Below, piece after piece: positions 26,185 to 42,290 of a DNA stretch of 64,000 bases. The translations under genes and the position numbers were made by a program. Source of the DNA: Chryseobacterium sp. G0186 (GTDB lineage Bacteria > Bacteroidota > Bacteroidia > Flavobacteriales > Weeksellaceae); the NCBI RefSeq assembly GCF_003815675.1, contig NZ_CP033918.1, positions 3,100,001 to 3,164,000 of the forward strand, read 5' to 3'. Position 1 is the first letter of the stretch. Each line of letters starts with the position of its first letter. The notes beneath the pieces are model-generated. The model was not told where the DNA came from and searched no databases. It worked only from the letters and a program-made list of their open reading frames with translations.

Positions 26185-26754
26185 ATGAATGATTTTTTAA
26201 TAGGTATCGGAAAGAGATTAAAGGATATTAGAAAAAAGAATAATTTAACCATTAATGACCTGGCCTTCAAGGCCAATGTAAGCAACGGACTTGTTTCCCG
26301 GATAGAGAACGGAAGAACCATTCCTTCTCTTCCTGTATTACTTGATCTTATTCAATCTCTGGAAATTGATGCCAGCTATTTCTTTGAAGGCGTGGAAAAA
26401 AAATCCAATGCAAAGTTTATTTATGTTCCTAAGGAAAGCCAGCAGGTTATAGAAAAGGAAGTGGAAGCTGAAGGGTTTAAATACATGCACATCTTCAGCA
26501 AAAGTCTTCATTCGCTAGGATTTGAAGCAGTATTGCTTACCCTTGAACCCAATTCCAAAAGAGAAAAGGTAATCACGGATGCCTGGGAATTTAAATACAT
26601 TCTTAAAGGTGAGGTAAAATACATCATTGATAATGAGGAAATTATATTAAAAGAGGGAGATTCTTTATATTTTAACGGAAAGTTTCCGCACGTTCCTGTG
26701 AGTATAAGCAATGAAAGCTGTGTAATGCTTGTCCTTTATTTCTATACTGCATAG
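26185..26754 (+). CDS. XRE-family transcriptional regulator with cupin domain
   Basis: 189 residues: a helix-turn-helix of the XRE type at residues 9-65 (LKDIRKKNNLTINDLAFKANVSNGLVSRIENGR) and a C-terminal cupin-2 barrel from about 110 (FEAVLLTLEPNSKREK...FKYILKGEVKYII...LKEGDSLYFNGKFPHVPVS). XRE-cupin proteins usually control small-molecule catabolism and bind the effector in the cupin. It precedes the aminophosphonate operon in the same orientation, and a 21-base palindrome lies 67 bases after its stop codon, so it is the best candidate regulator of that locus. This last step is inference. Confidence 0.9.
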   Translation: MNDFLIGIGKRLKDIRKKNNLTINDLAFKANVSNGLVSRIENGRTIPSLPVLLDLIQSLEIDASYFFEGVEKKSNAKFIYVPKESQQVIEKEVEAEGFKYMHIFSKSLHSLGFEAVLLTLEPNSKREKVITDAWEFKYILKGEVKYIIDNEEIILKEGDSLYFNGKFPHVPVSISNESCVMLVLYFYTA

Positions 26755-27125
26755 ATTTTATATAAAAATCCATTTATTTTTCAACGCAAAAGGGATAATT
26801 TTTATTCCATATCTTTCAAAAAAGTTTACTATTTGTAAACTTATGCTTTTTGAATTAGAAGTAAAATGAACGCTATGTTAATTGAAAACGTCTCTTTTAC
26901 AGAAAAGATCTAATAAAGAGCATCTTATTAATACATGTCTATAAATCCCTTAAATAAAGGGTTTCTTGATAGCAAACTTCTTTTTCTTTTTACTTTTTTA
27001 ATGAATTTAAGAGTAAGATATGAGTAACAAATCACCAGGATTTGTTAAACAATACTTAATACAAAATATTTATATATATTAAAATTATTAGCGTGATTTG
27101 CATAAAAAATTTAATATATGTAAAA
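26755..27125. other. 371-base regulatory region before the TonB receptor gene
   Basis: Contains the perfect palindrome at 26822-26842. A weak hairpin (CCCTT-AAATA-AAGGG) lies around 26946-26960. Nothing else is recognisable; if transcription starts near the palindrome the leader would be about 280 bases long. Confidence 0.5.
26822..26842. promoter_or_regulatory. Operator-like palindrome, copy 1
   Basis: Perfect 8-base inverted repeat AAGTTTAC-TATTT-GTAAACTT. The same core occurs twice in front of the secreted phosphatase gene at 33345. It lies between the XRE-cupin gene and the TonB-receptor operon. Confidence 0.7.
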
Positions 27126-29951
27126 ATGAAAACAAATTTAGAGAAATTACTTACCCTTGTTTTTGTCTGTTTTATCATTTTTGTTTCAGCGCAAAAGCAA
27201 TTCATTATAGGAACTGTTCTTGACGACAGCCAGCCGCTTCCGGGCGCAACAGTTAAAATAAAAGGTTTATCCAAAAGTCTAACCACAGATATTGACGGGA
27301 AATTTACAGTCAATGATATTAAGGAAGGACAATATAGCTTACAGATCAGCTATATCGGCTACGAATCCTCTGAGGTAAACGTTGATTTAAAACCCGGGGA
27401 AACCATAGATCTGGGAACAATAAAGCTATCACAACAAAGAAAAAATATTGATGAAGTTGTAGTAACCGGAACATTAAAAAATACCGAGGCAAGAGCCTTA
27501 AGCATACAGAAAAATGCTATTAATATTACCAATGTCATCGCATCAGACGGAATCGGAAAGCTTCCGGACAGAAATGCAGCAGAAACTGTACAACGTGTAC
27601 AGGGTGTGTCCATCGAAAGAGACCAGGGAGAAGGAAGGTTTGTTTCATTAAGAGGACTTCCTCCGTTCTGGGCATCCACTACCATCAATGGAAACAGGCT
27701 GCCAACGGCCGAGGAGGAAACTACATCCAGAGCCACAGCTTTTGACTTCTTCCCCACTGAATTGATTTCCTATGTTCATGTCAATAAATCCTTTACCCCT
27801 GATATTGAATCAGATGGAATTGGAGGCGGTGTCAACTTTATTACCAAAACCCCACCGATGAAAACAGAGTTTAAAGCCACATTAGGAAGCGGTTACAATG
27901 CCAAAGCGGATAAAGGCGTTTATAATCTTGGATTATTGTATGGAGGAAGAACAAAGGATAAAAAATTCGGATACTTGTTTAATTTCGCTCACTTTATAAG
28001 AAACTGGTCTACTGATAACTTTGAAGCGAGAAGAAGTGGTGATGAAGGGGTCTTCAGAATGGAGCTTCGCGATTATAATGGAGTCAGAAAAACCACCGGG
28101 ATCAATGCAGCCTTTGAATATGTACTGTCTCCGAAAAACACATTCTACATCAAGGGAATGTACGGAACTCTTTCTGATGATGAAACGCATTACAAACACA
28201 GAATCAGATTTGATAAGTTCAGTTCTGCCAACGGGACAGCAAGAGTGGAGCTTCAGAATATTCACAATTTACTGATTACAGAGCTTACTTCAGTTTCATT
28301 AGGAGGTATTCATCGTTTAGGTAAGGGAAAAATAGACTGGGATCTCTCCTACTATGACAACCAATTCAAGTATGGAAATATTCCTGACAAGCAAAATAAT
28401 TCCTATTATGTAATCAAGTACACCCAATCGGGAGTCGGAATTAATCCTGAATATATTTCTGATCGCGGAAATGGCCCAAGAGCATATTGGAAAGCCGATG
28501 GTGGAAAGCTAGATTATAAAAATCCGGATGCTTTGTTTGGATTCTACAGTGATCCGAACTTTAAGATGGATGCTTCCAGAATGAGATTTACAGATCTGGA
28601 ATTCTACAAAGTTTTTGTGGAGGAAAAAGATAAGATTGTGGCAGCATTTAACCACGAGATCAATACTTCTGATAAACTTACCTTAAAATATGGTTTTAAG
28701 TATAGAGACAAGGAAAGAAATGCAAAATTTTCTGATATATTCTATAACTGGAGCAATGGAACAGCCCCTCTTTTATCGGATTATTCTCAATACATCACCA
28801 CCCAGCCGAACGGGCAAAAGTATTTAAGTGAAATGAACGCCCACATCGGGAATTCCTTTGGACCGGTACTTTCTACTTCCGGAATGAATCAGTTCTGGTA
28901 TCAGAACCAGGGAAATCTAAAGATCAACACTGCTGATTCTGAAGCTCTGGAATACAATAAAGCCCTGGGAAGAAACTTCGATGTCTTTGAAAAACATGCT
29001 GACGCCTATGGAATGGCCACCTATAAACTGAATGATAAGATCATCCTTTTAGGGGGAATCAGATTATCCAATACCCATACAAAGGTGCAGGGTTATAATG
29101 TAGCAGACAATATTCTTACTCCGGTTGAACACACCAAAAATTATCTTGCTGTATTGCCTATGCTTCATTTAAAATATACCTTAAACGATAAAACGAACTT
29201 TCGTTTTGCTGCTACAAGAACTTTTTCAAGGCCAAATTTCGGAGACCTTACACCGGGAGGAACCTATAGTGAAGCGGATAATGAATTTAAGGGCGGTAAC
29301 CCAGACCTTAATCCAACTTATTCTTTAAATTTTGACCTGATGGGAGAATATTACTTCTCGAATGTAGGGATCCTGAGCGGTGGTATTTTCTACAAATCCA
29401 TTACAGATCCTATCTTCCAGGATTCATTCATTGGAAATTATAATGGAATGAATGGCGTACAGTTTTCTGCTCCCAATAACGGAAAAGCAGCATGGCTAGG
29501 AGGAATTGAATTGGGAATTAACAAAAGGTTTGACTTTTTACCAGGTTTCCTGCAATATTTCGGGGCTCAGGTGAACGCCACCTTTATGACTTCAGAAATG
29601 GAAAAACCAAGTGGAAGAAAAGTAGCTCTTCCCTATCAGGCTAAGGAACTCTATAATGTACAGCTATTCTTTGAGAAGAAAGGGTTCAATGCAAGACTTG
29701 CCTACAACTATAAAGGAAAATACGCCGTAGAGTATGCTGAGGATGACATTAATGATTCTTATTACGGAAAATACAGCAATCTGGACTTCGGAACCTCTTA
29801 TCAGTTTACGAAATTCTTAACGCTATATGCTGATGTAAACAACATTCTGAACAAACCCCTGATCTATCATTTCGGTAAAAATGAAGACCGTCCTGAACAG
29901 GTGGAATACTATGGAGTACGATTCAATCTTGGAATAAAACTGAACTTCTAA
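27126..29951 (+). CDS. TonB-dependent receptor
   Basis: Outer-membrane active transporter, 941 residues from the ATG at 27126 (an upstream in-frame ATG at 27093 would spoil the signal peptide). It has a signal peptide ending at about FVSAQ, a carboxypeptidase-regulatory-like domain at residues 25-105, a plug with NIDEVVVTGTLKNTEARAL (TonB-box-like start) and RVQGVSIERDQGEGRFVSLRG, then a beta-barrel to the terminal aromatic strand. The plug resembles the TIGR01782 group rather than SusC, and no SusD gene is nearby. As first gene of the operon with a phosphonate-type oxidase and HAD enzyme, it may import an aminophosphonate or a phosphonolipid fragment (inference). Confidence 0.93.
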   Translation: MKTNLEKLLTLVFVCFIIFVSAQKQFIIGTVLDDSQPLPGATVKIKGLSKSLTTDIDGKFTVNDIKEGQYSLQISYIGYESSEVNVDLKPGETIDLGTIKLSQQRKNIDEVVVTGTLKNTEARALSIQKNAINITNVIASDGIGKLPDRNAAETVQRVQGVSIERDQGEGRFVSLRGLPPFWASTTINGNRLPTAEEETTSRATAFDFFPTELISYVHVNKSFTPDIESDGIGGGVNFITKTPPMKTEFKATLGSGYNAKADKGVYNLGLLYGGRTKDKKFGYLFNFAHFIRNWSTDNFEARRSGDEGVFRMELRDYNGVRKTTGINAAFEYVLSPKNTFYIKGMYGTLSDDETHYKHRIRFDKFSSANGTARVELQNIHNLLITELTSVSLGGIHRLGKGKIDWDLSYYDNQFKYGNIPDKQNNSYYVIKYTQSGVGINPEYISDRGNGPRAYWKADGGKLDYKNPDALFGFYSDPNFKMDASRMRFTDLEFYKVFVEEKDKIVAAFNHEINTSDKLTLKYGFKYRDKERNAKFSDIFYNWSNGTAPLLSDYSQYITTQPNGQKYLSEMNAHIGNSFGPVLSTSGMNQFWYQNQGNLKINTADSEALEYNKALGRNFDVFEKHADAYGMATYKLNDKIILLGGIRLSNTHTKVQGYNVADNILTPVEHTKNYLAVLPMLHLKYTLNDKTNFRFAATRTFSRPNFGDLTPGGTYSEADNEFKGGNPDLNPTYSLNFDLMGEYYFSNVGILSGGIFYKSITDPIFQDSFIGNYNGMNGVQFSAPNNGKAAWLGGIELGINKRFDFLPGFLQYFGAQVNATFMTSEMEKPSGRKVALPYQAKELYNVQLFFEKKGFNARLAYNYKGKYAVEYAEDDINDSYYGKYSNLDFGTSYQFTKFLTLYADVNNILNKPLIYHFGKNEDRPEQVEYYGVRFNLGIKLNF

Positions 29952-29960
29952 TCCAGAACA

Positions 29961-31280
29961 ATGGCCAGAACCATCGACAAAAAAACAATAGTAACCCTAA
30001 AGGCAGCTTTTGCCGCCTTTGGTATTTACTTCTGCATGTATGGGTTTAGAAAACCTTTTACAGTTGCATCTTTTGAGGGAATCTCCTATTTCGGCGTTGA
30101 TTACAAAATATTAATCATTATTGCCCAGGCTATAGGGTATTTTATCTCTAAATTCATCGGGATCAAATTCATTTCCGAATTAAAGCCCCAGAAAAGAATT
30201 GGGTATTTATTTACGTTCATCGCAATCGCTGAGTTGGCATTATTAGGATTTGCAGTCGTTCCGGCTCCCTACAACATTCTGTTTATGTTCATCAACGGTA
30301 TTCCACTGGGAATGATCTGGGGAATTGTCTTTTCTTATATTGAGGGCCGCAAAACAACAGAAATTATCGGGTTATTTTTATGCTCAAGCTTCGTTGTCTC
30401 TTCAGGATTTACCAAGTCCGTAGGAAAGTTTTTGATGGATACTTTTTCTGTTTCGGAATTTTGGATGCCTTTCTCTGCCGGATTGATCTTTATAATCCCG
30501 CTACTTATTTTTGGATTGCTTTTGGAAAAAATCCCGCAGCCTACGGAAGAAGATATTTTGCTTAAAAGTAAAAGAAAACCATTGAACGGAAAAGAAAGGA
30601 AAAAGCTTATTCAACAGTTTTTTGTTCCGGTGGTATGTATTATTTTCCTTTATATCTGCCTTACCGTTTTAAGAGACTTCAGAGATAATTTCAACAGGGA
30701 GATCTGGGAAGGGTTGCATTTTACTTTTGACAGTTCCATCTTCACTTTAACAGAGATTCCTATTGCAGTAATGGTATTGGTTATCCTTAGCTTTATGGTA
30801 AAGGTTAAAAACAATAAAAAAGCCTTTGCCTATTATCACTACATTCTTTTTGCAGGAATTCTGATCGTAGGTCTTTCTACTTACCTATTTCAAAACAACG
30901 GATTATCTCCTTTTCTATGGATGACAATTTCCGGTTTTGGAATGTACATCTGCTATATTCCTTTTAACGGAATTTACTTTGACAGAATGATTGCTGCCTT
31001 TAATATTAAAGGAAATGTAGGCTTTCTGATCTATACGGTAGACTCTTTTGGATATCTGGGGAGTGTTTTGGTTCTGCTGTATAAGAACTTCGGGTCAGCG
31101 CAGACTTCATGGCTTCATTTTTATATCAGCCTGAATTATATCATTACCATCTCTGTTTTAATTCTTTCGGTGATTGCTTTTTTGGCGTTCAGAAAAAAAT
31201 CAAAACCAAAATCAAACTCTAATCAATTTCGATACTTCGAAAATCTTATAAATTATAGTAAAAATGACAACAAAATTTGA
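29961..31280 (+). CDS. DUF5690-family MFS-like transporter
   Basis: 439 residues with about twelve hydrophobic segments. The first segment FAAFGIYFCMYGFRKPFTVA and the loop GIPLGMIWGIVFSYIEGRKTTE recall major facilitator carriers of the organophosphate:phosphate antiporter type (GlpT, UhpT), which fits a phosphonate substrate. I take it as the DUF5690 family, whose substrate is not established. It starts nine bases after the receptor gene and overlaps the next gene by 17 bases, so it is translationally linked with it. Confidence 0.85.
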   Translation: MARTIDKKTIVTLKAAFAAFGIYFCMYGFRKPFTVASFEGISYFGVDYKILIIIAQAIGYFISKFIGIKFISELKPQKRIGYLFTFIAIAELALLGFAVVPAPYNILFMFINGIPLGMIWGIVFSYIEGRKTTEIIGLFLCSSFVVSSGFTKSVGKFLMDTFSVSEFWMPFSAGLIFIIPLLIFGLLLEKIPQPTEEDILLKSKRKPLNGKERKKLIQQFFVPVVCIIFLYICLTVLRDFRDNFNREIWEGLHFTFDSSIFTLTEIPIAVMVLVILSFMVKVKNNKKAFAYYHYILFAGILIVGLSTYLFQNNGLSPFLWMTISGFGMYICYIPFNGIYFDRMIAAFNIKGNVGFLIYTVDSFGYLGSVLVLLYKNFGSAQTSWLHFYISLNYIITISVLILSVIAFLAFRKKSKPKSNSNQFRYFENLINYSKNDNKI

Positions 31281-32418
31281 TTTACTCATTGTGGGAGGTG
31301 GAATTCTTGGAACATTCCATGCTTACCATGCCCTGAAGAGAAATCTTAAGGTAGCGATACTGGAAAGAAATTCTGTACCTCAGGGGGCCACTGTAAGAAA
31401 TTTCGGACAGGTAGTGCCCTCCGGAATGGATCTTAAATGGCAAAATTTTGGAAAAGAAAGCCTTAGCATATATCATGAACTTCATAATCAGGCAGACCTT
31501 ACCATCAGAAAAAACGGATCTGTATACATTGCTTCCAATGACGAGGAGCTTCAGCTGATCGAAGAACTCTACGAAATCAACAGAAACAGTGATTATGAAT
31601 CTGTTTTATTATCCAGAAATGACTGCATCAAGAAGTTTGATGGTCTCCGTTCAGATTATTGTAAAGGTGGATTATTTTTTCCACAGGAGATTTCTGTAGA
31701 TTCTGCAGAGATGATTGTAAAACTTCACAAGCTTCTGCAGGAAAAAATGGGATTACACATCTTCTATAATACCACCATTGCTGAAACCCATGAAGATGAC
31801 CAGAAATGTATCGCTACTGCAACAGATGGGGTTGAGTTTACCGCTTCAAAAATCATTATCTGTGGCGGTCATGAGTTCAAAACATTATACCCTAATGTAT
31901 TCAATGAAAGTGATCTGGAGGTAAGTAAGCTTCAAATGCTTCAAACAAAACCACAGGGGATTTATTCTCTTCAGGGGAATATTCTGACCGGTCTTTCTAT
32001 CAGAAGATATGAATCGTTTGGAGAGTGTCCGTCTTTTAAAAAGATCAAGGCTTTGGAAGACCCCAACTCGTTTGAAAAGAAATACGGTGTTCATATTTTA
32101 TTCAAGCAGGCCCTTGACGGATCTGTAATTCTTGGAGACTCTCATGAATATGCTGATGCTAAAAATGCTGATGATCTTGGATATGATCTGAATATGGAAA
32201 TCGACGAATTCATGATCCATGAGGCAAAAAAAATCATTGATTTACCTACCTACGAAATTCAGAGAAGATGGTTCGGGGTGTATTCCCAGTGCAAGACGAA
32301 AGACATCTTTGAACATAACCCTTCTCCGAATATTCATATTGTGACAGGGATCGGAGGAAAAGGTATGACAGGAAGCGGAGGCTTCTCCAAATTTAATATT
32401 GAAAAAATATACGCATAA
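31264..32418 (+). CDS. FAD-dependent oxidoreductase, TIGR03364-like
   Basis: 384-residue protein of the DAO (glycine/D-amino-acid oxidase) superfamily. The dinucleotide-binding loop is LLIVGGGILGTFHAYHAL (Gly11-Gly16), followed by VAILERNSVPQGATVRNFGQV, a typical DAO FAD site; the C-terminal GIGGKGMTGSGGFS contacts FAD too. It resembles the TIGR03364 group, which is found beside phosphonatase-like enzymes and is thought to deaminate oxidatively an aminophosphonate such as N-methyl- or 1-hydroxy-2-aminoethylphosphonate to the aldehyde. The next gene is exactly such a phosphonatase-like enzyme. Confidence 0.88.
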   Translation: MTTKFDLLIVGGGILGTFHAYHALKRNLKVAILERNSVPQGATVRNFGQVVPSGMDLKWQNFGKESLSIYHELHNQADLTIRKNGSVYIASNDEELQLIEELYEINRNSDYESVLLSRNDCIKKFDGLRSDYCKGGLFFPQEISVDSAEMIVKLHKLLQEKMGLHIFYNTTIAETHEDDQKCIATATDGVEFTASKIIICGGHEFKTLYPNVFNESDLEVSKLQMLQTKPQGIYSLQGNILTGLSIRRYESFGECPSFKKIKALEDPNSFEKKYGVHILFKQALDGSVILGDSHEYADAKNADDLGYDLNMEIDEFMIHEAKKIIDLPTYEIQRRWFGVYSQCKTKDIFEHNPSPNIHIVTGIGGKGMTGSGGFSKFNIEKIYA

Positions 32419-32424
32419 ATTTAA

Positions 32425-33093
32425 ATGAAAAATATAGAATTATTGGTTCTGGATATGGCCGGAACAACGATTGACGAGGATAATGTAGTATACAAAACCC
32501 TTACAAATGCCGTAAACGATTATGGGTATGAAGTAAGTTTAAGTAAGGTATTATCTACCTGTGCCGGAATGGAAAAACTGGAGGCGATTACAAGCCTGCT
32601 AAGGGAAATTAAAGGAAATGAAGAAGATGCTCATGCTATTTTTGAAAACTTTTCAGACCAGTTAAAGGAATCCTATCAGAACCTGGAAGTAAGACCCATC
32701 AACGGCACAGAAGGTTTTCTCCTTACCATGAAAGCTCAAAATAAAAAGATTGTATTAAATACAGGGTATACTTCTGAAATTGCCCATCAGCTTTTAAACA
32801 AACTAAACTGGAAAGAAAATGTTCATTTCGATGCTCTTATCACCGCTGATGATGTTTCGGAAAGCCGTCCAAGCCCGGAAATGATTCATCTTGCCATGAA
32901 AAAGTTCAATATTACGGAGGCGGATAGGGTTTTAAAGGCCGGAGATTCAGTAATTGATGTAGAAGAAGGCAAAAATGCAGGATGCGGACTAACCATTGCA
33001 GTTCTTTCCGGGGCACAAAAGAGGTCGGAACTGGAAAAAGCAGGCCCTGATTATATTTTAAATACGATTTCTGAGGCTGAAGGTATTCTTTAA
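32425..33093 (+). CDS. Phosphonatase-like HAD hydrolase, TIGR03351-like
   Basis: 222-residue HAD-superfamily protein close to phosphonoacetaldehyde hydrolase (PhnX). The N-terminal nucleophile motif is DMAGTTID (Asp10, Ala12), the DxAGT form typical of phosphonatases rather than DxDxT. A lysine (Lys51, in CAGMEKLEAI) is in place to form the Schiff base with the substrate aldehyde. ESRPSPEMI and AGDSVIDVEEGKNAG complete the HAD site. It would cleave the C-P bond of the aldehyde made by the preceding oxidase. Six bases separate it from that gene. Confidence 0.9.
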   Translation: MKNIELLVLDMAGTTIDEDNVVYKTLTNAVNDYGYEVSLSKVLSTCAGMEKLEAITSLLREIKGNEEDAHAIFENFSDQLKESYQNLEVRPINGTEGFLLTMKAQNKKIVLNTGYTSEIAHQLLNKLNWKENVHFDALITADDVSESRPSPEMIHLAMKKFNITEADRVLKAGDSVIDVEEGKNAGCGLTIAVLSGAQKRSELEKAGPDYILNTISEAEGIL

Positions 33094-33109
33094 TGACTTC
33101 TTTTTCACC

Positions 33110-33133
33110 CTGAATTATTGATTCAGCCTTTTT
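33110..33133 (+). terminator. Terminator of the aminophosphonate operon
   Basis: CTGAAT-TATTG-ATTCAG hairpin followed by CCTTTTTG, 16 bases after the HAD gene. Confidence 0.6.
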
Positions 33134-33258
33134 GAATACTTGATGACACCCTTGTTTTCACAGATCACTTTTTGTTTTTTGGAAAATCATGGGTGTTATT
33201 TTTTGATCTTCTTTTGGGGAACTTTTTAATTATCAATTAATTAATTTTCAGTTCACAC

Positions 33259-33279
33259 ATGTTTACAAATAGTAAATTA
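33259..33279. promoter_or_regulatory. Operator-like palindrome, copy 2 (inverted)
   Basis: ATGTTTAC-AAATA-GTAAATTA. Its reverse complement shares the 16-base core TTTACTATTTGTAAAC with copy 1. It lies 66 bases before the phosphatase start codon. Confidence 0.65.
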
Positions 33280-33298
33280 ATTTTACAATTATTAAAAA

Positions 33299-33319
33299 TA
33301 AATTACTATTTGTAAACTT
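33299..33319. promoter_or_regulatory. Operator-like palindrome, copy 3
   Basis: The right 17 bases, TTACTATTTGTAAACTT, are identical to copy 1; the left arm is degenerate. It ends 25 bases before the start codon, so it probably overlaps the promoter. Confidence 0.65.
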
Positions 33320-33344
33320 TTATATTCTCAAAATTCTTTATCCT

Positions 33345-35198
33345 ATGAAAACAAAACTATTCTCAATGGCTGTTGTAATGAGCTGTTTCGTTGGAGCTCA
33401 AACCAAGAAAGTCCTTTTTATTGGTATTGACGGATGCCGTGCGGACGTTATGATGTCTACAAGCACTCCCAACATCCAAAACCTCATCAATCAGTCCATT
33501 TATTCTCTTGATGGCCTCTGTGCTGCCACCACCTGGAGCGGAAACGGCTGGAGTACGATGCTTACAGGGGTATGGCATACCAAGCATAATGTTCAGGACA
33601 ATAATTTTACCAATCCTAATTATGCCAATTATCCGGATTTTCTGACAAGAGCAGAAGCCTATAATCCTAACCTCAGAACAATTTCTTTGGCCCATTGGGC
33701 GCCTATTAATGATAAAATTATAAAAAACGCTGATGTAAAGACCAATCTGGCAACAGATCTTGCCGTAAAAAACGCTGCTGTAAGTGCCTTACAGAATGAT
33801 AATCCTGATATTCTCTTTGTAGACTTTGATGATGTAGACCATGCAGGGCATTCTTATGGGTTTTCGTCATCGGTTCCGCAGTATGTATCTTCTATTCAGA
33901 CTACGGATTCTTTTATTGGCGAGATCGTAAATGCCATGAAGAGCAGATCAACCTATCAGAATGAGGATTGGCTGGTTGTCTTAACAACGGATCATGGAGC
34001 AGTTGAAAGTTCTCATGGTGGTGGAAATCTTTCTGAACGAAATATTTTCACGGTTTACTCCAATCCGGGATTTGTTCCTCAGCAGATCAGTAAAACAGTG
34101 TTAGAATCCAATAAAACCTTTAACCAATTAAACTTTCCTGCAGGAACGTATGCAAAGCCCACTAACCAGACTCCATTTAACTTTGGAGCCAACCAGGATT
34201 TTACTATTGAATTTTGGGTAAAACCAAATGCAGCCTACTCTAGCGACCCTGTAATGATAGGTAATAAAAGCTGGGCCAATGGAAAAAATAAAGGAATTAT
34301 TTTCTCCGGGTACAGTGGACAAACTTTTAAAATGAATATTGGCGATGGCACCAACAGAATTGATCTGATAGGCGGGAAAGCGGAAACCAATAAATGGAAA
34401 CATATTGCAGCCAGCTTTGACAGGGACGGGCTTGTTACTTTATACGAGGATGGGGTTCCTGTAACTTTTGCCAAGATGAATACCATCGGAAATATTGATT
34501 CCGGGCTTCCATTGACTTTAAACCAGGACGGAACGAATACCTACAATCTTAATCTCGCAGCCTCTTATAAAGACATCAGAATATGGAAATCAGCTCTTCC
34601 TGCTAGTGTAATTGCGAACTGGGCGCATCAGGATATAACACCTTCCCACCCTTATTATTCTCAATTGCTGGCTAACTGGAAATGTAATGAAACATCCGGA
34701 AGCAGCTTGACAGACGCCAGCCCGAATGCCAATAACATGACCATAACAGGATCTCCTGCCTATAATGCCAATACAACCGCCAATTTTAAGATATATGACT
34801 ATAGCTCAACAACCAGAGAAACAGATCATTTCCCGACCGTTTTGAACTGGCTTTGTATTCCGGTACCCACTTCATGGGGAATTGATGGGGTAAACAGAAT
34901 TCCTGAATGTTCCAACGGAAGTTTAACCACAAAAGAAATCAAGGAAAAAACGGATGATTTTAAGATTTATCCCAATCCCGCGTCTTCAAGCATAAGCATC
35001 ACTTACCAATCTGGAGATAAGACAATTAAGTCTGAAATCATTGATGCTAAAGGAGCTCTTGTTTCTACAAAAAGTTTACAATCTTCCAACGGTTATTTTG
35101 AAGAGAAAATAAATATTGAAAATCTTCCGGCTGGTATCTATTTTATTAAGCTAAGCGGAAGCAAAAAGTCTATGACAAAGGCTTTTATAAAGAAATAA
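33345..35198 (+). CDS. Secreted alkaline-phosphatase-superfamily phosphodiesterase with LamG insertion and T9SS tail
   Basis: 617 residues. Order: signal peptide to about residue 19; phosphodiesterase/NPP-type domain with GIDGCRADVM (metal Asp29), the nucleophile Thr in AATTWSGNGWSTMLTG, DVDHAGHSYG and TTDHGA (Asp216-His217); a LamG/concanavalin-like domain at about 255-430; a return to the enzyme fold (TDHFPTVLNWLCI...SWGIDG, about 490-515); and a type IX sorting domain at about 537-617 (IYPNPASSSISIT...AGIYFIKL). It is therefore exported and surface-attached or released. The shared palindrome ties it to the aminophosphonate operon; it may free a phospho- or phosphono-headgroup. The true substrate is unknown. 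Confidence 0.88.
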   Translation: MKTKLFSMAVVMSCFVGAQTKKVLFIGIDGCRADVMMSTSTPNIQNLINQSIYSLDGLCAATTWSGNGWSTMLTGVWHTKHNVQDNNFTNPNYANYPDFLTRAEAYNPNLRTISLAHWAPINDKIIKNADVKTNLATDLAVKNAAVSALQNDNPDILFVDFDDVDHAGHSYGFSSSVPQYVSSIQTTDSFIGEIVNAMKSRSTYQNEDWLVVLTTDHGAVESSHGGGNLSERNIFTVYSNPGFVPQQISKTVLESNKTFNQLNFPAGTYAKPTNQTPFNFGANQDFTIEFWVKPNAAYSSDPVMIGNKSWANGKNKGIIFSGYSGQTFKMNIGDGTNRIDLIGGKAETNKWKHIAASFDRDGLVTLYEDGVPVTFAKMNTIGNIDSGLPLTLNQDGTNTYNLNLAASYKDIRIWKSALPASVIANWAHQDITPSHPYYSQLLANWKCNETSGSSLTDASPNANNMTITGSPAYNANTTANFKIYDYSSTTRETDHFPTVLNWLCIPVPTSWGIDGVNRIPECSNGSLTTKEIKEKTDDFKIYPNPASSSISITYQSGDKTIKSEIIDAKGALVSTKSLQSSNGYFEEKINIENLPAGIYFIKLSGSKKSMTKAFIKK

Positions 35199-38895: not shown

Positions 38896-39456
38896 TCATG
38901 TTAATAAATCTGAAAAGGGTTTTAGTAATGAAGTAGGAACAGGAGAAGCAGGAAACGGGTATTTGCCTCCATATGGACGATTATAAGTGGGAAGGTATTG
39001 ATCGGTTATTATTTTAGTCTCCAAATATCCCAAAGGATACCAAAAATCAGAAGAGTCCCTAATGCATAAACCGAAAATAACCAAGTCATATTTTGTGAGT
39101 AAATCAAACTGTCCCTTATTAATGAGACGCCTGCCATAGGGCCTATTATCATCAATTTCTCTTGATAGAATCTTACGGGCAAAATCTACTGGAACAGTTT
39201 CCGTTTTTATATCTGCCCGTTTACCGTTCACAATAATATCATAGCTGTCTATGGTCAGGTAATCTTCCCTTATATTCTTTTTCCAGTCTTGCCCTAAGGC
39301 TGTGGAGCATGCAAATTCGCCCCAAAATCCCAATTCATCTCTCTGTTCAGAACTCAGATGTCCTACCTCAAAATGGTGCCTTATATGGGCATTCCTTTTT
39401 TGAGCTTCAATTTTAGCCTGAGCCTTCATTTCATCTGAGATCTGTATTTTGATCAT
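38896..39456 (-). CDS. Probable PD-(D/E)XK restriction endonuclease
   Basis: 186 residues, no close family named from memory. An acidic residue in LGFWGEFACS (Glu47) is followed by SYDIIVNGKRADIKTE, giving Asp73, Asp82 and Lys84 as a plausible D-x(8)-DxK nuclease core. The gene is directly downstream of the methyltransferase and overlaps it by four bases (ATGA type), the usual layout of a type II restriction gene translated with its methylase. The call as a nuclease is inference from motif and context. Confidence 0.65.
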   Translation of the reverse strand: MIKIQISDEMKAQAKIEAQKRNAHIRHHFEVGHLSSEQRDELGFWGEFACSTALGQDWKKNIREDYLTIDSYDIIVNGKRADIKTETVPVDFARKILSREIDDNRPYGRRLINKGQFDLLTKYDLVIFGLCIRDSSDFWYPLGYLETKIITDQYLPTYNRPYGGKYPFPASPVPTSLLKPFSDLLT

Positions 39457-41960
39457 TCCATGGTTTTTAAAAGACCAAAGAAAAATACGGAATTGTTGTC
39501 AATATTCAATGAACGGGTCCCATAATTTCGGGCCACTCTGTAAAATTTTTCAAATTCCTTTGAGCCATAATATTCCAGATCAGTCTCCGTTGGCATTCGG
39601 CTTCCGTTTTTCAAGGTTAGCAGCGCCACAGAACCGTCTGCAATCGTATTTTTAGGCAGAAAACTAGCTCTTGGGTAATAGGTTAGGTTGGGAACCATAA
39701 CCACTCCCTCCTTATTTAGGTATTTGGATACCGCCAGCTTCTCTGTTTCGTCAATATAGCTATCATAGTTATCAATCTCAATGATTTGATTGGTCCCAAC
39801 GTTTCTAGACTTTAAAACCCTGTATTTACCGGAATCTTTTGTCAATTGCTTGGTGATTTGTCTGTCCCTGAAGCTCTGAAAGATATCAAACTTCATCTTA
39901 TCAAAGGTCTGATCAAACTCGTCATTTCTATACAACAGCCAATAAGGGAACTGAGCAGAAAATAAATAGTCCTTTTTACTCTCTTTTACAGTCTCCGTGA
40001 TATAGCTTTCAATTAAAATAGTATCAAATGCTTTTTTTGCAGATGTTTCAAGCAAGAAACTGATGGTCTCTATTTTGACTCCCTTAAAGCCTTTTTCACC
40101 ATAATCACAGATCTTCAAGAGATTTTGTTCCTTTAAAATCTCGCGGGTACCATTAAATTCCGGAGCATTAATAAGGCTTTTAGGCACTATTAACGATACA
40201 TATTTTCCAATTGAAATTGCTTTTTCAATAAAGAATGAAAATAGGTTATTGGTTTCCTTGTTTTGTGCCTGTCCTTTATAGGCCGCCAGTAATTCCTGAT
40301 TATTGGTAAGCTTTTTATAGGGTGGATTTCCTACGACAAGATCATATTTCACATCAAACTGATGGGTCAGAAAATCTGCATTGATGCAATTAAACTTAAA
40401 CTTCTTTGATAGCTTTAAGTGGTTCAGTATTTCCCGTAAAACAACAAATGAATTCCCATCAATATCTACAAGATCAAAAATAACCTCGTCTTTGTCTTCA
40501 TATTTTTCAACAAGCAGCGGAATGAAGTTCCCAATTCCTACAGAGGGTTCCAGTATTCTTATTTTTTTCTTCCCTTTAAAGTCCGGAAGATCCTTTACTA
40601 CAGTAAAAGCAATATCTTTTCTTGTGAAAAACGCAGCATTTTCCTGACGGCTTGAGTTGGCATATTCAGCAATCTGATAGATATTTTCAAGACCAAATTT
40701 TTTGAAATCTGACCGTATCAAAGAAATAAGATTCTCTGTTATATGCAGTTCTTCCTTTTTAATCAGCACATTGAGCTCTGATGCGGAAAGAAATTTTTGG
40801 CTGACAACTTCTTTAATTCTTTTGGCAATATTAGCAAAAACCCCTGTAGGAACAGCCTCCCCAATACAATGTCTGATATTGAGTTCTTCTTTTTTCAAAA
40901 ACTTTTTCTGCTCCTCAGGCTCTAATGCATTCAATTTTTCAGCAGCTACATTTGTCCATGCAAAGTTCTCCGGAATACTCATCATCAACATCAATTCTCT
41001 GATACTGAAAACCCTGTTCTCAGAAGGATGAACTGTGTTCTGACTGGCTAAAATATCATTTCTGGTATGAACACATGGTCCCTCCCTATCCCAGTACCAA
41101 CGGGCATATTTATCTCCATTCTTGCTTTTATTGAAAACAATTTCGCCGTCCTTTATCTGATGAGGAATTCTTTCCTTTTCTTCGTTTTGAAAGGCAGACT
41201 GTCCTTCTTTTAATTTTTCAATCCAGGGAAGCATTTTTACATCATATTCTCTGAATGAATGGAAAATATCATTTTTAGAAATTGTTCCCATTTCATTAAG
41301 CTTTTCCAGATCGGTAAAGAGCTCTCTTAATGTTTTAGGCTTCTGCTTTTGTGGAAAAATATCAAAAGGACTTACATTTTGTAAATCTTTCCTTACTCCG
41401 ATCACCAAGGTTCTGGTTCTGCTTGAATGAGCACCATAATCCTTGAAGTTGATCACTTTAGATAAGATATTATAATGTCCGCCAAGGTTTTGTACAATAG
41501 CATCCCCTATGGTTTTCTCTAATCCGTCAGTATCTGTACAGGTTGTTGTTAAAAATGCTCTTACATTTTCAAATACAAAAAACCTGGGATTAACCTTTTT
41601 TGTAATTTTTATGGATTCTACGACCAATGAATTTCGGCCTAATTCATCATTCTTTTTATGATTGGCAACCGACATCCCCTGGCATGGTGGTGTTGCGATA
41701 ATAATATCGGGCTCAGAAACATGGTGTTTCTTCTTCCACATTTCTATTTCTGTAAATAACTGATTCTGGACCTCCAGACTGGTAATATCACCATCAAGAT
41801 ATCCTGTTTCATATCTGCATTTCTGGTTATGCTCCTGAATCTTTAAACGTTTTGAAAGCAGCTCGTTGGTTGCAATACACTCAAATCCATTTTCTTTAAA
41901 CCCAAAACAACCTACTCCTGCACTGCTGAATAAACTAATATAAGTTAGTGGCTTTTTCAT
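39453..41960 (-). CDS. Fused DNA methyltransferase: m5C domain plus N6-adenine domain
   Basis: 835 residues with two complete methyltransferase modules. Residues 1 to about 390 are a cytosine-C5 enzyme: motif I ISLFSSAGVGCFGF, motif IV TPPCQGMS with catalytic Cys93, motif VI ENVRAF, motif VIII RTRTLVIGV and the late motif GEAVPTGVFANIAKRI. Residues from about 430 form a class I N6-adenine enzyme: AAFFTRKDIA, AdoMet motif RILEPSVGIGNF and catalytic NPPY at 545-548, with a likely target-recognition tail. One protein could thus methylate C on one strand and A on the other strand of an asymmetric site. It lies three bases after the controller gene. Confidence 0.9.
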   Translation of the reverse strand: MKKPLTYISLFSSAGVGCFGFKENGFECIATNELLSKRLKIQEHNQKCRYETGYLDGDITSLEVQNQLFTEIEMWKKKHHVSEPDIIIATPPCQGMSVANHKKNDELGRNSLVVESIKITKKVNPRFFVFENVRAFLTTTCTDTDGLEKTIGDAIVQNLGGHYNILSKVINFKDYGAHSSRTRTLVIGVRKDLQNVSPFDIFPQKQKPKTLRELFTDLEKLNEMGTISKNDIFHSFREYDVKMLPWIEKLKEGQSAFQNEEKERIPHQIKDGEIVFNKSKNGDKYARWYWDREGPCVHTRNDILASQNTVHPSENRVFSIRELMLMMSIPENFAWTNVAAEKLNALEPEEQKKFLKKEELNIRHCIGEAVPTGVFANIAKRIKEVVSQKFLSASELNVLIKKEELHITENLISLIRSDFKKFGLENIYQIAEYANSSRQENAAFFTRKDIAFTVVKDLPDFKGKKKIRILEPSVGIGNFIPLLVEKYEDKDEVIFDLVDIDGNSFVVLREILNHLKLSKKFKFNCINADFLTHQFDVKYDLVVGNPPYKKLTNNQELLAAYKGQAQNKETNNLFSFFIEKAISIGKYVSLIVPKSLINAPEFNGTREILKEQNLLKICDYGEKGFKGVKIETISFLLETSAKKAFDTILIESYITETVKESKKDYLFSAQFPYWLLYRNDEFDQTFDKMKFDIFQSFRDRQITKQLTKDSGKYRVLKSRNVGTNQIIEIDNYDSYIDETEKLAVSKYLNKEGVVMVPNLTYYPRASFLPKNTIADGSVALLTLKNGSRMPTETDLEYYGSKEFEKFYRVARNYGTRSLNIDNNSVFFFGLLKTME

Positions 41961-41963
41961 TGG

Positions 41964-42290
41964 TTAGAATTCTATTTCGGTTTGTTTTACGTTCATATTC
42001 CTCATGTAATTAATCTTTTCCTTAGCTACATTCAAAGCTTCAGGTAAGCAATTGTATTTAAACATTTTTTTTGCAAATTGATCGCCAAAATACTCCACCT
42101 TTAATTTTTCAATGTCAAGATTAAAGACATCAGCCAGCTTTTCCAACCGTCTCTCGTCAAAATCTCTTTTCCCATTTTCTATTTTACTGAGGTTTGCAGA
42201 ATCAAGCTCAAGTCTTGCTGCAAGCTGTGTTAAGGTCAAATGATTATTCGTCCTTAACTCTCTGATATATTCGCCGAACATTGCTTTCAT
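41964..42290 (-). CDS. XRE-family controller (C) protein
   Basis: 108 residues with a helix-turn-helix at about 7-62 (IRELRTNNHLTLTQLAARLELDSANLSKIENGKRDFDERRLEKLADVF). The small size and position as first gene before methylase and nuclease are those of restriction-modification controller proteins. A half-site array and a -7 element lie just upstream of its start, consistent with autoregulation. The remainder of the protein (about 65-108) has no recognisable fold. Confidence 0.82.
   Translation of the reverse strand: MKAMFGEYIRELRTNNHLTLTQLAARLELDSANLSKIENGKRDFDERRLEKLADVFNLDIEKLKVEYFGDQFAKKMFKYNCLPEALNVAKEKINYMRNMNVKQTEIEF

Follow-up and report, generated by a model that had tools for sequence, protein, structure and literature searches.

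DUF5690 as a candidate inner-membrane carrier in a probable aminophosphonate utilization operon of Chryseobacterium sp. G0186

Phosphonates represent a notable share of dissolved organic phosphorus, and the Bacteroidota are major polymer degraders. The system closest to the one considered here is the PbfD2-PhnX pathway of Mariniblastus fucicola, in which a TIGR03364-related FAD oxidase and a phosphonatase act on 2-aminoethylphosphonate (AEP) and N-methyl-AEP without the transaminase PhnW (PMC10590968). PbfD1 and PbfD2, both of the TIGR03364 group, oxidize N-methyl-AEP and, less efficiently, AEP to phosphonoacetaldehyde with transfer of the electrons to oxygen, and the authors propose that PbfD2 replaces the missing PhnW (PMC10590968), while R-hydroxy-AEP is the substrate of a separate enzyme, PbfA (PMC12366243). 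On the uptake side, the PUS/PusCD systems of Flavobacterium couple outer-membrane uptake by TonB or SusCD proteins to phosphoesterases (PMC8115612), and the gene for AepP, a major facilitator superfamily (MFS) 2-AEP permease of Pseudomonas putida BIRD-1 related to GlpT, lies beside phosphonate catabolism genes (PMC8316502). In the literature searched, phosphonate uptake by Bacteroidota was covered only by AepP in one named species, Kriegella aquimaris (PMC8316502), and, in outline, by a statement about PusCD clusters of Flavobacterium; there was nothing more specific on a phosphonate carrier of this phylum, and the name DUF5690 was not found. Here we analyze a 64,000-nucleotide stretch of the 5.04 Mb genome of Chryseobacterium sp. 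G0186 (contig NZ_CP033918.1, positions 3,100,001 to 3,164,000; hereafter the window) and propose that a gene cluster within it, encoding a DUF5690 protein, is likely to be an aminophosphonate utilization operon of a Bacteroidota type.

The cluster resembles the M. fucicola pathway in having a FAD oxidase and a phosphonatase-type enzyme and no PhnW, and it is unlike that pathway in adding a TonB-dependent receptor, a DUF5690 protein, an XRE-cupin regulator and a phosphodiesterase secreted by the type IX secretion system (T9SS). Its HAD hydrolase is TIGR03351-like. TonB-type uptake together with a phosphoesterase recalls the Flavobacterium PUS systems, from which the window differs by a lone TonB receptor, the lack of a SusD and a substrate-type regulator. 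The MFS-fold carrier gene beside catabolic genes is reminiscent of AepP, but AepP is 27.75% identical to GlpT (PMC8316502) whereas the DUF5690 protein has no significant sequence link to the organophosphate:phosphate exchanger (OPA) carriers, and it is by these separate relationships, rather than by direct comparison, that the two are set apart. A plasmid cluster of Acinetobacter sp. SAAs474 (L228) with the arrangement TIGR03364-PhnW-PhnX is also similar; its oxidase is 33% identical to that of the window, and it has a putative 2-AEP ATP-binding cassette (ABC) transporter, PhnW and an annotated phosphonoacetaldehyde hydrolase where the window has the receptor, DUF5690 and the PhnX-like HAD enzyme. 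The catalytic core is of a known pathway type whose enzymology is already established, and the new elements would be the assignment of the carrier, the operator and an arrangement like that of a polysaccharide utilization locus (PUL).

The evidence for aminophosphonate catabolism comes from family assignments, partners and context, and together these support well the reading made in a prediction from the DNA letters alone (the original prediction). The oxidase scores 396 bits against TIGR03364, above the curated cut-off of 285, as expected from the family call made there. The role of this family had been described as proposed, for N-methyl- or hydroxy-AEP; the first part is now backed by the characterized PbfD1 and PbfD2 (PMC10590968), while the second goes back to an old family note. 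Hydroxy-AEP was rejected as the main substrate, since N-methyl-AEP and AEP are what the published members of TIGR03364 act on, and the cluster does not encode PbfA. By analogy, the oxidase would convert N-methyl-AEP or AEP to phosphonoacetaldehyde. A partner for cleavage of the C-P bond is encoded only 6 bp downstream in the form of the PhnX-like HAD enzyme, and labels for HAD, PhnX or PhnA accompany 26 of 31 PbfD loci from other genera (here and below, labels of neighbors are phmmer score thresholds against single representatives, with the representatives and a few other proteins checked against curated models). The predicted lack of PhnW held, with nothing matching it anywhere in the genome at E ≤ 1e-60. 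Likewise, no PhnX over the cut-off was found in the genome, the best match being the operon's own HAD enzyme at 98 bits, PhnJ was not found although the Escherichia coli control was positive, and phosphoenolpyruvate mutase gave no match. These results led us to reject a true PhnX encoded elsewhere, a C-P lyase route and the recycling of self-made phosphonates, and, for the families searched, they leave the operon as the sole hydrolytic phosphonate route, probably serving external rather than self-made substrates.

The assignment of the HAD enzyme as phosphonatase-like of the TIGR03351 type holds in that this is its best family by far (209.8 bits), although the score falls 9 bits short of the curated cut-off of 218.9; five scanned relatives, at 165 to 204 bits, are all below it too. 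Against TIGR01422, the PhnX model, the score is 106 bits (98 in the genome search), far under 220. Asp10 and Lys51 are where they had been predicted and are invariant in all 92 aligned relatives, as are Thr14, Arg148, Asp174 and Asp178, while in the DxAGT motif the D, G and T are found in 92 and the A in 91 of these sequences (HAD-labelled proteins of 180-300 residues only, many of them close relatives). Using the roles known from PhnX, we take the Asp to be the nucleophile and Lys51 to form the Schiff base, with the Arg located before the C-terminal motif. The position of His56, presumably the cap-domain residue of PhnX, is Ala in 82 of the 92 HAD enzymes and His in three of four aligned PhnX sequences. 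Pathway logic favors phosphonoacetaldehyde as the substrate: PhnX-like HAD enzymes adjoin PhnW without PbfD or another PhnX label in L168 and L175, and in L096 such an enzyme lies beside PhnW, PbfD and PbfA together. Against this, the seven named loci with PhnW comprise three with a true PhnX, two with a HAD enzyme of the window type and two with neither. From residues and context the enzyme would cleave the C-P bond of phosphonoacetaldehyde. It is very unlikely, in our judgment, that the substrates of the cluster are instead ordinary phosphate esters, for instance phosphoethanolamine or lipid-derived glycerophospho-compounds, with the HAD enzyme as a phosphatase and the oxidase acting on a phosphorylated amine. 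Enzymes of the PF01663 family, to which the secreted protein belongs, mostly cleave phosphodiesters, the fold neighbor of DUF5690 transports sugar phosphates, and the HAD enzyme weakly matches the PpaX and phosphoglycolate phosphatase models, all of which would suit such a role; phosphoethanolamine also belonged to the panel of compounds assayed with the Pbf enzymes (PMC10590968). Against it stand the retention of the D, G and T of the motif with Lys51 and Arg148 in every aligned relative, the presence of the phosphonate enzymes PhnW, PhnA, PhnY and PbfA among the neighbors of DUF5690, and the inactivity of the tested Pbf oxidases on the non-phosphonate analogues sarcosine, taurine and beta-alanine (PMC10590968).

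All six genes of the original prediction were recovered by an open reading frame (ORF) check on the plus strand and where it had placed them (Table 1). They are tightly packed from receptor to HAD enzyme, with a gap of 9 bp between receptor and carrier, an overlap of 17 bp between carrier and oxidase and the 6-bp gap already mentioned. The comparison of gene order in relatives that had been suggested was made with 22 other loci of the genus, drawn from the 90 further genomes of the genus in which TIGR03364 was matched, and the order XRE-receptor-DUF5690-oxidase-HAD is kept in all of them, with the XRE-cupin regulator always present and a lone TonB receptor always heading the operon; the secreted enzyme is retained in 20. 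The five-gene order is conserved in the genus, and a rearranged form of it, in many cases with SusC/SusD, occurs in other families. Outside the genus one frequently finds XRE, HAD, DUF5690 and PbfD in that order, adjoining SusC-like and SusD-like proteins, and among the 31 loci XRE was labelled in 15, HAD in 23 and DUF5690 in 23.

Table 1. Positions within the window of the genes and candidate control sites of the cluster.
Feature	Position	Strand	Basis or remarks
XRE-cupin regulator	26185-26754	+	HTH_3 and Cupin_2 profile matches
Perfect 21-bp palindrome, candidate operator of the receptor operon	26822-26842	.	Between regulator and receptor genes
TonB-dependent receptor	27126-29951 (alternative GTG start 27093)	+	TIGR01782 type; CarbopepD_reg_2, Plug and barrel
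DUF5690 (PF18943) MFS-fold carrier, candidate inner-membrane aminophosphonate carrier	29961-31280	+	Pfam scan
PbfD-type FAD amine oxidase	31264-32418	+	TIGR03364
PhnX-like HAD hydrolase	32425-33093	+	TIGR03351-like; residues Asp10, Thr14, Lys51, Arg148, Asp174, Asp178
Degenerate operator-like copies	33259-33279 and 33299-33319, weaker one between	.	3 mismatches each, 4 in the middle copy
Secreted alkaline-phosphatase-superfamily phosphodiesterase	33345-35198	+	PF01663, Laminin_G_3 (LamG), DUF4983 and T9SS tail

The carrier matches PF18943 (DUF5690) over profile positions 1-382 of 382 with 550.6 bits (gathering score 25), and matches no other Pfam family. In a survey of 395 genomes of the phylum, TIGR03364 was found in 33, DUF5690 in 42 and both in 30, so that DUF5690 is present in 30 of 33 genomes with TIGR03364 vs 12 of 362 without (Fisher p 6e-32) or, counted by genus, in 21 of 24 vs 9 of 146 (p 6.5e-17), both p-values ignoring relatedness above genus. 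PhnW exceeded its cut-off in 13 of the 395 genomes, and DUF5690 occurs in 35 of 39 genomes with PbfD or PhnW vs 7 of 356 others. Of 47 DUF5690 copies, all placed by the coordinates of the profile match (the ORF caller missed the gene of L104), 34 lie within 9 kb of a phosphonate catabolism gene and 13 do not, the median gap being 54 bp (33 measured, the window's own left out). The partners span several chemistries, namely PbfD, PhnX-like enzymes, the Phn-HD oxygenase, PhnW, PbfA, PhnY, PhnA and PhnX. A further 80 named loci (L145-L224), the best kept of 582 confirmed, were drawn by DUF5690, which is therefore not itself counted there; phosphonate genes were present in 51 and none were found in 29. 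Among these 80, three Chryseobacterium loci (L210, L215, L222) have DUF5690 proteins 84-91% identical to that of the window.

The original prediction had stated that there is no ABC transporter and that outer-membrane uptake replaces it. None was found in a scan of nine proteins from the cluster and its flanks, but uptake across the outer membrane cannot alone stand in for such a transporter, and the inner-membrane step handled by it in other bacteria is most likely carried out by DUF5690. More broadly, we lean, with some reserve, toward DUF5690 being the main inner-membrane aminophosphonate carrier of the Bacteroidota, a divergent organophosphate/phosphate exchanger that replaces the ABC phosphonate transporters of other phyla and forms the common denominator of PUL-like phosphonate loci, in which TonB or SusCD import, a secreted headgroup hydrolase of the alkaline phosphatase (AP) superfamily and XRE-cupin control are joined to interchangeable C-P modules (PbfD with PhnX-like enzymes, PhnW with PhnX, PhnW with PhnY and PhnA, PbfA, or Phn-HD).

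Beyond its own family, the DUF5690 protein was compared with known carriers by fold and by sequence. G6PT was first in both fold comparisons, with unrelated MFS carriers within about 2 Z units, and the sequences of DUF5690 A1, DUF5690 A4 and the window protein gave no match to PDB sequences. Helix 1 ends in an Arg-Lys pair (R30 in 153 and K31 in 143 of 153 sequences), the position of which we liken to the phosphate-binding Arg45 of GlpT; in an alignment of low score, this pair falls opposite the RK of the three OPA proteins that exceed the cut-off. Comparison of DUF5690 with the OPA set by hhalign (four proteins, three over the cut-off; controls were four proteins of the Bcr/CflA type, one over the cut-off, and five other MFS proteins) gave E 0.028 and a probability of 1.8%. 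This weak link, the 29 named copies without phosphonate genes and the fact that ABC phosphonate transporters were searched for in nine proteins only are compatible with DUF5690 exporting a product such as phosphate or methylamine, or carrying other cargo, while the substrate of an otherwise unchanged core enters elsewhere. OPA relatives are exchangers, and phosphate efflux is half of their expected cycle, which also would suit export. We nevertheless regard this as unlikely, given that no ABC transporter was seen among those nine proteins and that DUF5690 accompanies several chemistries that have the entry of an aminophosphonate in common.

Aminophosphonate import by DUF5690 may not extend to the whole family. 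Seven of the 13 partnerless copies in the phylum survey (L097, L098, L099, L103, L109, L110, L111) group together in the tree, and a second function is therefore likely in part of the family. The copy of L110 adjoins a weak match to the Omp85 family, under the cut-off. DUF5690 was also seen in metagenome-assembled genomes labelled Lysobacterales, Myxococcales and Ignavibacteria (L154, L211, L150, L152), outside the Bacteroidota or at its edge, and in the control genome of Caulobacter vibrioides. A phosphonate-type cluster with SusC, SusD, two AP-superfamily enzymes, HAD, XRE and TIGR03364 is located on a 126-kb plasmid of Hymenobacter sp. NBH84 (L229), where no DUF5690 is present in the annotated 17 kb, the annotation of the plasmid being incomplete.

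At the outer membrane, the receptor scores 484 bits against TIGR01782 (cut-off 310) and is encoded without a SusD, so the cluster does not contain a SusC and SusD pair. Among the 31 PbfD loci of other genera, labels for both SusC and SusD are found in 16 and any TonB-type uptake label in 20, while in five sister-genus loci neither a receptor nor a secreted enzyme was labelled. The secreted enzyme matches PF01663 with 71.2 bits (threshold 23) and its T9SS tail matches TIGR04183 with 44 bits (cut-off 23). The structural model predicted for the enzyme was poor, with a mean predicted local distance difference test score (pLDDT) of 62. Asp29, Ser65, Asp165, His169, Asp216, His217 and His224, which from the NPP family we assume to be the metal ligands and nucleophile, hardly vary in an alignment of 16 relatives. 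Of the 31 loci, 20 carry a label for an AP-superfamily enzyme, and the examples scanned belong to several subfamilies with differing additional domains (PA14, hemopexin). The enzyme of the window would release AEP from lipid or glycan esters. In L142 and L222 the gene for the secreted phosphodiesterase is broken into two frames, and L138 has two copies of it. In addition, an AP-superfamily-like protein of about 360 residues with weak matches to PF01663 and PF00884 (L070, 16456-17550, and relatives) often follows SusD in phosphonate clusters; it was labelled in 12 of the 31 loci, and no better family name was found.

A perfect palindrome between the regulator and receptor genes, AAGTTTAC-TATTT-GTAAACTT, is a candidate operator. 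It is unique in the genome at up to one mismatch. In each of the 23 gaps compared within the genus, that of the window among them, it recurs with 0-3 mismatches at a distance of 238-284 bp upstream of the receptor start, while six of 690 mononucleotide shuffles reached three mismatches and none fewer. Outside the genus a one-mismatch copy adjoins the XRE gene of L078, but 19 of 24 XRE flanks have at least four mismatches and the palindrome is therefore mostly a genus-level feature. The only two other matches in the window with up to three mismatches both lie directly before the gene of the secreted enzyme, with a weaker copy between them at 20-bp spacing; three or more matches were also seen in one of 100 shuffles. 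A promoter at this site was rejected, the scan having found 3 vs a shuffle mean of 2.0, and copies of the operator are the better reading of its TTTAC/GTAAA repeats. The corresponding gap was compared in 20 loci of the genus (L127 and L128 are without the secreted enzyme and L141 fails the gap filter). Twelve of these gaps, that of the window included, are longer than 150 bp, and 11 of them carry sites with 2-3 mismatches, vs three of 800 shuffles that reached three or fewer; the other eight are 82-84 bp long and have no such sites.

These data bear on whether the secreted phosphodiesterase could be an unrelated neighbor, which we think improbable. Its gene lies 251 bp behind that of the HAD enzyme in the window, and it is absent from two of the 22 genus loci and all five of the sister genus, as might be expected of a bystander, yet the short gaps place it 82-84 bp behind the HAD gene in eight of 20 cases, and the operator-like sites and the AP-superfamily labels in 20 of 31 other-genus loci tie the secreted enzyme to the system. 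The shared palindrome copies suggest, from sequence, that it and the receptor operon form one regulon. The XRE-cupin protein is a probable substrate-responsive regulator of the operon and may be what binds the palindrome; a substrate-sensing regulator fits with use that is independent of phosphate starvation. Its best NCBIfam match is PuuR, at 49 bits far under the cut-off of 211, and PuuR has an amine-related role. This match, and the requirement of the MFS permease AepP for growth on AEP as a nitrogen source (PMC8316502), favor a pathway that mainly supplies nitrogen, or serves detoxification, with phosphate as a by-product. That is a real possibility, if not the probable one, as phosphorus scavenging remains compatible with all of the observations.

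We therefore return to aminophosphonate utilization as the likely function of the cluster, for which six steps can be envisaged. The PF01663 enzyme, secreted by T9SS, would cut a phosphonate ester carried by a lipid, glycan or glycoprotein to give N-methyl-AEP or AEP (step 1), and the TonB receptor would import this product, or a fragment bearing it, into the periplasm (step 2). In step 3, the new element, DUF5690, for which an organophosphate:phosphate exchanger ranks first among solved folds with other MFS carriers close behind, would move the substrate over the inner membrane, possibly against phosphate. As shown for family members elsewhere, the PbfD oxidase would then use oxygen to produce phosphonoacetaldehyde and free methylamine or ammonia (step 4), and the PhnX-like HAD enzyme, judged from its residues and context, would yield phosphate and acetaldehyde by means of the Lys51 Schiff base and Asp10 (step 5). 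The XRE-cupin protein may sense the substrate or an amine and, by way of the palindrome that they share, control both the receptor operon and the secreted enzyme (step 6). If true, this would connect the breakdown of phosphonolipids and phosphonoglycans with PUL-like uptake. Once carrier family, operator and secreted hydrolase are defined, phosphonate-using Bacteroidota could be found from sequence, and DUF5690, a domain whose function is so far unassigned, could be tested directly.

Elsewhere in the window, on the minus strand at 38896-42290, is a group resembling a type II restriction-modification system. It includes an 835-residue fused methyltransferase, which matches PADLOC MTase_II with 738 bits, together with a small XRE control-like protein and a 186-residue protein that has no match in PADLOC and may be the nuclease.

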